Shown here in pieces: positions 28,596 through 29,979 of a DNA stretch of 54,540 nt. Under the pieces are notes generated by a model. It was not told the origin of the DNA and did not search any database. It saw only the letters and a list, made by a program, of their open reading frames with translations. Position 1 is the first letter of the stretch. Every line of letters starts with the position of its first letter. The DNA comes from Dehalococcoidia bacterium. Its GTDB lineage: Bacteria > Chloroflexota > Dehalococcoidia > Lucifugimonadales > Lucifugimonadaceae. The stretch is from positions 1-54,540 of the forward strand of contig JAPKCH010000009.1 of the NCBI GenBank assembly GCA_026421185.1. Reading direction: 5' to 3'. The position numbers were made by a program, and so were the translations under genes.

Positions 28596-29078
28596 ATGGC
28601 ACTTCAACCCGGTACACAGGCACCTAATTTCACTTTGGATGCCCACTCTGGTCAGGTAAAACTTTTTGATCTGCGCGGCAAGATAGTGGTTGTCGGATTT
28701 CATCCCGCCAGCTTCACCGGTGGCTGACTGAATCAGGTGCGCGGGTTCCGCGCAAACTACGATAAGTTCGTTGCTCTAAACGCAGAAATCATTGAGATTA
28801 GTGCTGATCCCGTTCCGGTACAAAAGGCGTGGGCTGCCAGCATGAAAGAAAACGATAGCGATGAAGACGGACAGGTTCCGTTCCCGATTGCCAGCGATTT
28901 TTGGCCGCACGGCGAAGTGATCAAAGCGTTCGATGTGTTCAACGAAGCTACCGGCAAAGCAAAACGCTCGGTATTCATCATCGACGGCGAAGGAATGATT
29001 CGCTGGTCGAACGTTTACACCGACTCGATCCCAGCCTCAGGTGAACTCCTGCACGAAATAGAGAATCTGAAATTCTGA
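28596..29078 (+). CDS. Selenocysteine-containing peroxiredoxin (AhpE/Bcp-like), TGA decoded as Sec
   Basis: Predicted peroxidase that reduces hydroperoxides in the cytoplasm. The frame from ATG 28596 encodes 160 residues if TGA 28725-28727 (codon 44) is read as selenocysteine. The N-terminal part (MALQPGTQAPNFTLDAHSG, then FDLRGKIVVVGFHP) and the C-terminal part (VFIIDGEGMIRWSNV) both belong to a peroxiredoxin, and they are in the same frame across the TGA. The active site reads PASFTGG-U, an exact fit to PxxxTxxC/U. The protein contains no cysteine at all, so it would act as a 1-Sec enzyme. A SECIS-like hairpin follows. A caller that stops at TGA would report only a 113-residue GTG-started fragment lacking the active site. 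A terminator ends the unit at 29101. Confidence 0.88.
28738..28754 (+). promoter_or_regulatory. Candidate bacterial SECIS hairpin
   Basis: TGCGCGG-GTT-CCGCGCA: perfect 7-bp stem with a GUU triloop whose first base is G, as SelB-binding loops require. The loop begins 17 bases after the TGA, inside the 16-37 base window known for bacterial SECIS elements. Confidence 0.75.
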
Positions 29079-29100
29079 TCGCTTAGATTAAATTCTGAAT

Positions 29101-29136
29101 AAAAAAGTCCGTCGGAATACTCTGACGGACTTTTTT
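29101..29136. terminator. Bidirectional intrinsic terminator
   Basis: AAAAAAGTCCGTC and GACGGACTTTTTT flank a 10-base loop between the convergent peroxiredoxin and HpcH aldolase genes. It works in both orientations. Confidence 0.92.
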
Positions 29137-29166
29137 ATTTATTAGGTATTCTGTCGCCCAGCGACC

Positions 29167-29979
29167 TTAGTAGAACGTGCCACCGTCTTTGTCGTCGCCT
29201 TCTAGTTCGCCGGCTAAACCAGCTTTCACATCGGCAAGCTGACTCTCGACGCCCGATTTTAGCATTCCAGCGTCTGAGCTAATTGGGAACCACTGCATGC
29301 CCTGCTTGATACGCCGAGATGCTTCTTCGCCGGAAGCAGTGTGTGCTCCGGTAAATACGCCGTGCCTCTTTCCAGCATCGACGACCTTTTGAACAGCAGC
29401 AATGTGATCAGGATGCTTGTTGTCTAAGCCGATCGGAACGCCCATGTTCTGGGCAAGATCGTTAGGTCCGATGAAACATACGTCGACACCTGGAACCGAC
29501 ATAATCTCGTCGATCTGATCTACAGCAATAGGATCTTCTATCATGATCACGACCAAAGTCATTTCGTTGGCATGCTTGTAGAAGCCGGAGCCGTATGCAA
29601 TTTGACCACGTGCGCTACCGATTCCACGAATTCCATCGGGAGCGTACTTTGCAGCCTGAACTATTTCACGAGCTTGTTCGGCATTTTTTACATCTGGTGC
29701 AACGATGCCCATGAACCCAATATCAAGGATTCGCTTAATCCATACTTTCTCACCATACGGAACCCGAGCGAACATAGGTGTGCCGCTGCCTTGAGCCGCA
29801 CGGAGGCAGTTCACAGCCGTTGAAACGTCTATAGCGTTGTGTTCGAAGTCGACAGTGATCCAGTCGAGATCGGTCATGTATGCCAGGACTTCGATTACTG
29901 AAGGGTCGCCAGTAGTCGACCATGTGCCGACAGTGGCTTCGCCACGTTTCATCTTGTCTATGACGGGATTTGAATCCAT
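29167..29979 (-). CDS. HpcH/HpaI-family 2-keto-3-deoxy acid aldolase
   Basis: Class II metal-dependent aldolase that cleaves 4-hydroxy-2-keto acids (for example 2-keto-3-deoxy-glucarate or -pentonate) to pyruvate and an aldehyde. The 270 residues show the phosphoenolpyruvate/pyruvate barrel: WITVDFEHNAID near 40, RVPYGEKVWIKRILDIG near 73, GIGSARGQIAYG near 119, MIEDPIAVDQID (metal Glu), and VDVCFIGPNDLAQNMG (metal Asp). The end GELEGDDKDGGTFY is a lineage-specific tail. The gene diverges from the KDPG-type aldolase and the sugar kinase, grouping three enzymes of 2-keto-3-deoxy acid metabolism. Confidence 0.88.
   Translation of the reverse strand: MDSNPVIDKMKRGEATVGTWSTTGDPSVIEVLAYMTDLDWITVDFEHNAIDVSTAVNCLRAAQGSGTPMFARVPYGEKVWIKRILDIGFMGIVAPDVKNAEQAREIVQAAKYAPDGIRGIGSARGQIAYGSGFYKHANEMTLVVIMIEDPIAVDQIDEIMSVPGVDVCFIGPNDLAQNMGVPIGLDNKHPDHIAAVQKVVDAGKRHGVFTGAHTASGEEASRRIKQGMQWFPISSDAGMLKSGVESQLADVKAGLAGELEGDDKDGGTFY

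Follow-up and report, generated by a model that had tools for sequence, protein, structure and literature searches.

A putative selenocysteine-containing AhpE-like peroxiredoxin encoded across an in-frame TGA codon in SAR202-type Chloroflexota

Can an in-frame TGA at the active site of a bacterial peroxiredoxin gene be read as selenocysteine (Sec)? The question is raised by positions 28596-29078 (+ strand) of a 54,540-nt stretch of DNA, hereafter the window, which comprises positions 1-54,540 of contig JAPKCH010000009.1 in the Dehalococcoidia bacterium assembly GCA_026421185.1 (Lucifugimonadaceae). Judging from sequence comparison, the gene almost certainly encodes a Sec-containing, AhpE-like peroxiredoxin whose codon UGA44 is decoded by means of a downstream SECIS hairpin.

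Reading frame and conservation of the TGA codon

The open reading frame was translated as a chain of 160 amino acids with Sec at residue 44 (MALQPGTQAPNFTL...GFHPASFTGG-U-LNQVRGFRANY...ENLKF), and it ends with a second TGA at 29076-29078. A first-pass annotation of this DNA had proposed that both sides of the TGA at codon 44 (28725-28727, + strand) read as one peroxiredoxin in the same frame. Our analysis bears this out, as a single AhpC-TSA domain (Pfam PF00578, E = 1.6 × 10−31, residues 5-137) spans the TGA and covers both halves. The codon occupies the peroxidatic position of the motif P37-x3-T41-x2-U44, where the annotation had located it (PASFTGG-TGA), and the translated chain has no Cys residue, again as it had claimed. 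A scan of the window for further genes with in-frame TGA codons returned only short, chance-looking frames.

An amidohydrolase gene (PF04909; 27683-28537, + strand) lies just upstream and was the neighbour in all 12 congeners examined. On the other side, a convergent HpcH/HpaI aldolase gene (29167-29979, − strand) serves as context only; farther away, glycine cleavage genes are found upstream and sugar-acid genes downstream. Between the convergent genes lies a probable bidirectional terminator hairpin (29097-29140, no strand assigned), which has a 20-bp stem with A/T ends (−26.6 kcal/mol, z = −9.3). Its location after the full-length stop fits one transcript ending past the read-through frame. 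A consensus promoter and terminator scan recognised no promoter and no site at 29097-29140.

Orthologues were searched for in 100 related genomes. Of the 19 genomes in the genus, 17 had a TGA-containing orthologue (E < 1 × 10−70), among them the genome under study and the closed genome of the named strain Candidatus Lucifugimonas marina JH1073 (orthologue L063); the congeners G015 and G016 had none. Many further TGA homologues were spread across the order. The TGA stood in the column after P-x3-T-x2 in 29/29 aligned homologues. Among 301 genomes drawn from the phylum, the best loci had TGA or TGC/TGT at this codon and no other. Fifteen stop-free relatives, deliberately chosen from the order and from the same genome, all had Cys at this codon. 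Altogether, 45 Sec (TGA) and 31 Cys (TGC/TGT) homologues were obtained, two of the latter from Verrucomicrobiota, and no homologue had another residue. The alignment that the first-pass annotation had called for therefore gave a column of Sec and Cys only, and the random residues or other stop codons that it had named as refuting its reading were looked for in these 76 homologues and not seen.

The protein was constrained alike on both sides of the TGA, with a fraction of residue-different pairs of 0.20 upstream and 0.25 downstream. Pro37 was conserved in 28 of 29 comparable homologues, and Thr41 and Arg124 were conserved as well. On a tree of 61 sequences, Sec and Cys had to be exchanged about four times. 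All 33 sequences on its SAR202 side were Sec forms, in a set that was picked by similarity and for that reason left out one close Cys form (L146, genome G083).

Proposed SECIS hairpin, selenocysteine machinery and rival explanations

A bacterial-type SECIS hairpin is predicted at 28738-28754 (+ strand). Its stem halves (28738-28744 and 28748-28754) form a perfect 7-bp stem that encloses a GUU loop (28745-28747), so that it is a hairpin closely 3' of the UGA with a loop beginning with G. The first-pass annotation had described this stem and loop correctly and had placed the start of the stem 17 bases after the TGA; that distance belongs to the loop, and the stem begins 10 bases after the TGA. 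Synonymous variation, calculated per six-codon window as the share of residue-identical pairs with different codons, averaged 0.48 among the 17 genus orthologues. It fell to 0.059 at codons 48-53 (18 bases), the lowest of 146 windows, and this minimum coincides exactly with the stem-loop. Only 0.3% of synonymous-codon shuffles were as stable as the hairpin (z = −3.15), and the genus mean z was −3.0. The excess stability of the 56-nt fold over dinucleotide shuffles was modest (z = −2.05).

Within the genus, 99.2% of the stem cells were paired. One orthologue (L038, genome G005) has a compensatory stem change from G-C to A-U together with A53V, by which the pairing is kept and the residue is altered. 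As many as 38 of 500 shuffles gave covariation counts equally high; covariation alone is weak because the stem is nearly invariant. The stronger evidence for a SECIS element is thus the synonymous constraint and not covariation. In other SAR202 genera, the predicted hairpin at the same place was weaker, and bulged in some (mean z = −1.1), which confines the strong evidence for the element to the genus.

The first-pass annotation had also argued that the Sec reading needs selA, selB, selD and tRNA-Sec elsewhere in the genome, and all four were detected in the same metagenome-assembled genome (MAG; 2.13 Mb, 117 contigs, 96.6% complete). The genes selA (518 bits, contig C1), selB (313 bits, contig C58, plus a separate C-terminal part) and selD (370 bits, contig C83) all scored above their curated cut-offs. 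By DNA comparison, we found a tRNA-Sec with anticodon TCA at the end of the 3,356-base contig C35; it is cut by the contig end, and its 55 bases are identical to those in the closed Candidatus Lucifugimonas marina genome. Complete tRNA-Sec genes (anticodon TCA) were present in most congeners. A tRNA-Ser (GCT) that was the top Rfam match in the tRNA-Sec search of this genome proved to be a false lead, the search having been misled because the true tRNA-Sec is cut by the contig end; ARAGORN found no tRNA-Sec near selA, selB or selD in this genome.

Could the UGA stand for another amino acid, by reassignment to Trp or by misreading or suppression as Cys, with no Sec involved? We consider this very improbable, since TGA terminates this gene as well as others, and Trp is encoded by TGG, which occurs 90 times in 14 open reading frames of the window, one of which ends in TGA. 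Moreover, the only other codons in the column are those for Cys, TGG being absent, and the genome has the Sec machinery and the gene a locally conserved hairpin. A nonsense change of TGC or TGT to TGA in an ordinary Cys peroxiredoxin, whether in a pseudogene or by sequencing error, takes one base change, and the sequence comes from a MAG. However, the 17/17 TGA-containing genus orthologues come from separate assemblies, including the closed named-strain genome, the TGA is kept across families at 34-56% identity, and the region downstream of it is under purifying selection. The conservation already refutes this explanation, which is even more improbable than that of another amino acid.

The least credible alternative is that translation of the locus yields an N-terminal peptide of 43 aa and, from a GTG at 28737, a separate C-terminal protein, for which the mechanical list of open reading frames does contain a 113-aa frame. 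However, the peroxidatic motif and the single Pfam domain cross the junction, the GTG start codon is GTA in one congener, and a peptide lacking the catalytic residue would not be expected to persist with Cys and TGA alternating at this codon. The reading of UGA44 as Sec is, by comparison, as strong as sequence alone allows.

Enzyme type and proposed mechanism

The best solved relative by sequence is AhpE of Mycobacterium tuberculosis (E = 1 × 10−21), and a Foldseek search with an AlphaFold model (pLDDT 87) returned the same protein as the best match (TM 0.88-0.92). Pro37, Thr41, Sec44 and Arg124, together with PF00578 and the match to the thioredoxin fold, mark the protein as a peroxiredoxin. 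M. tuberculosis AhpE (Rv2238c; PDB 1xvw, 4x0x, 5c04) is of the same one-chalcogen type without a resolving Cys, and the catalytic Pro, Thr and Arg are common to both. However, the two are only about 33% identical, and the SAR202 protein has Sec in place of Cys.

The two enzymes also differ at His36 (codon 28701-28703, + strand), which is invariant in the aligned SAR202 Sec forms and takes the place of the Phe or Tyr of AhpE-type enzymes. According to PMC12697902, a histidine is specific to Prx6-type peroxiredoxins and needed for reduction by hydrosulfide, whereas AhpE-type enzymes have Phe or Tyr. His36 is equated with that histidine by its adjacency to the motif Pro (H36-P37) and not by structural superposition. 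The SAR202 protein thus shares the active-site His of the Prx6-type 1-Cys enzymes, but its length and fold are nearer to AhpE; the first Prx6-type chain ranked 13th in the Foldseek search and is longer. Sequence, structure and the lack of a resolving Cys agree with the AhpE subfamily, the residue before the motif Pro does not, and we therefore name the protein AhpE-like and not AhpE.

Sec peroxiredoxins with a TxxU motif are an accepted selenoprotein family (PMC13188914), one example being the Eubacterium acidaminophilum peroxiredoxin (Sohling 2001, cited there). The SAR202 protein resembles this family in being an AhpC-TSA protein with Sec for the peroxidatic Cys in PxxxTxxU, in having a TGA followed by a stem-loop, and in having Cys homologues elsewhere. 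In contrast to PrxU, it is shorter, belongs to an AhpE-like branch and has no other Cys, and the NCBIfam PrxU model NF040737 matched it weakly (74.1 bits against a cut-off of 270).

Following the known mechanism, SelB and Sec-tRNA-Sec would bind the hairpin 10 bases after the UGA and decode UGA44 as Sec. The peroxidatic site would then consist of Sec44 with Pro37, Thr41 and Arg124. By analogy with the family, the selenolate would attack H2O2 or an organic peroxide and be converted to a selenenic acid. An outside reductant would be needed because the chain has neither a resolving Cys nor any other Cys, and a low-molecular thiol, thioredoxin or hydrosulfide may reduce the oxidised selenium; we offer hydrosulfide as a hypothesis only.

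The selenium trait in SAR202

The first-pass annotation had guessed that the DNA comes from SAR202-type Chloroflexota, and close relatives do include Candidatus Lucifugimonas marina JH1073, whose SAR202 genus was described from culture (PMC10444878). SAR202 is ubiquitous in the ocean, as the same paper states, and it makes no mention of selenium. SelA and SelB co-occur in most sponge-symbiont bins of various phyla in PMC5649159, in which SAR202 is mentioned. We found no publication that names SAR202 as a Sec user, in a search that covered few subscription journals, and an earlier description is possible. The first-pass claim that Sec is not widely noted in SAR202 agrees with the literature found, but Sec was already known for the phylum, with three selenoproteins in Chloroflexi in 2006 (PMC1794560). 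The biology of Sec peroxiredoxins is established, their occurrence in SAR202 is seemingly undescribed, and the interest of the finding is modest.

A marine lineage that is represented in culture would accordingly carry a selenium trait that seems undescribed. We predict that SAR202 cultures require selenium, and that standard annotation truncates this antioxidant peroxiredoxin at its catalytic residue. Peroxiredoxins with TxxU are frequent in marine metagenomes, and the GOS marine metagenome contains 253 such sequences (PMC2398784). A bolder proposal, which we regard as doubtful, is that SAR202 has a distinct subclass that combines an AhpE-type fold, a Prx6-type His and Sec in a Cys-free chain, has its oxidised selenium reduced by hydrosulfide or a similar small agent and not by thioredoxin, and supplies an unattributed share of the marine TxxU peroxiredoxin pool.

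The Sec trait is general in the order because selA was present in 37 of the 40 relatives checked and missing only in three genomes. In 30 of the 40, selA, tRNA-Sec (full or cut) and the TGA peroxiredoxin occurred together. The three genomes without selA (G022, G023 and G024) likewise had neither tRNA-Sec nor the TGA peroxiredoxin, which suggests an apparent loss of the trait; they are 1.3-1.5 Mb in size and belong to the same family, each to a different genus. In genome G002 (83% complete), the TGA peroxiredoxin and selA were present and tRNA-Sec was not found.

Several MAGs of the genus have contigs that end in or beside tRNA-Sec (L104, at the end of C35 in the genome under study, and L103, L105, L106 and L092), which suggests an assembly branch point at this gene. 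We considered whether tRNA-Sec is an integration site, and this was not supported, as the closed L. marina genome (L096) has no integrase within the stretch examined; there, tRNA-Sec lies next to genes for a thioredoxin and a histidine kinase.

Other candidate selenoproteins were also observed. The selD gene of the genome under study (L020; C83:31871-32797, − strand) has an in-frame TGA in the motif CAGUAG near the N-terminus and is itself a probable selenoprotein gene. In L. marina (G013:C1:1276429-1276982; L157, L139 and L144), SelW/Rdx-like genes occur in tandem, one with Cys (EYCVPCGY) and one with Sec (EYCVPUSY). The second SelW/Rdx-like copy in the genome under study (L138, contig C108) appears frameshifted and decayed.
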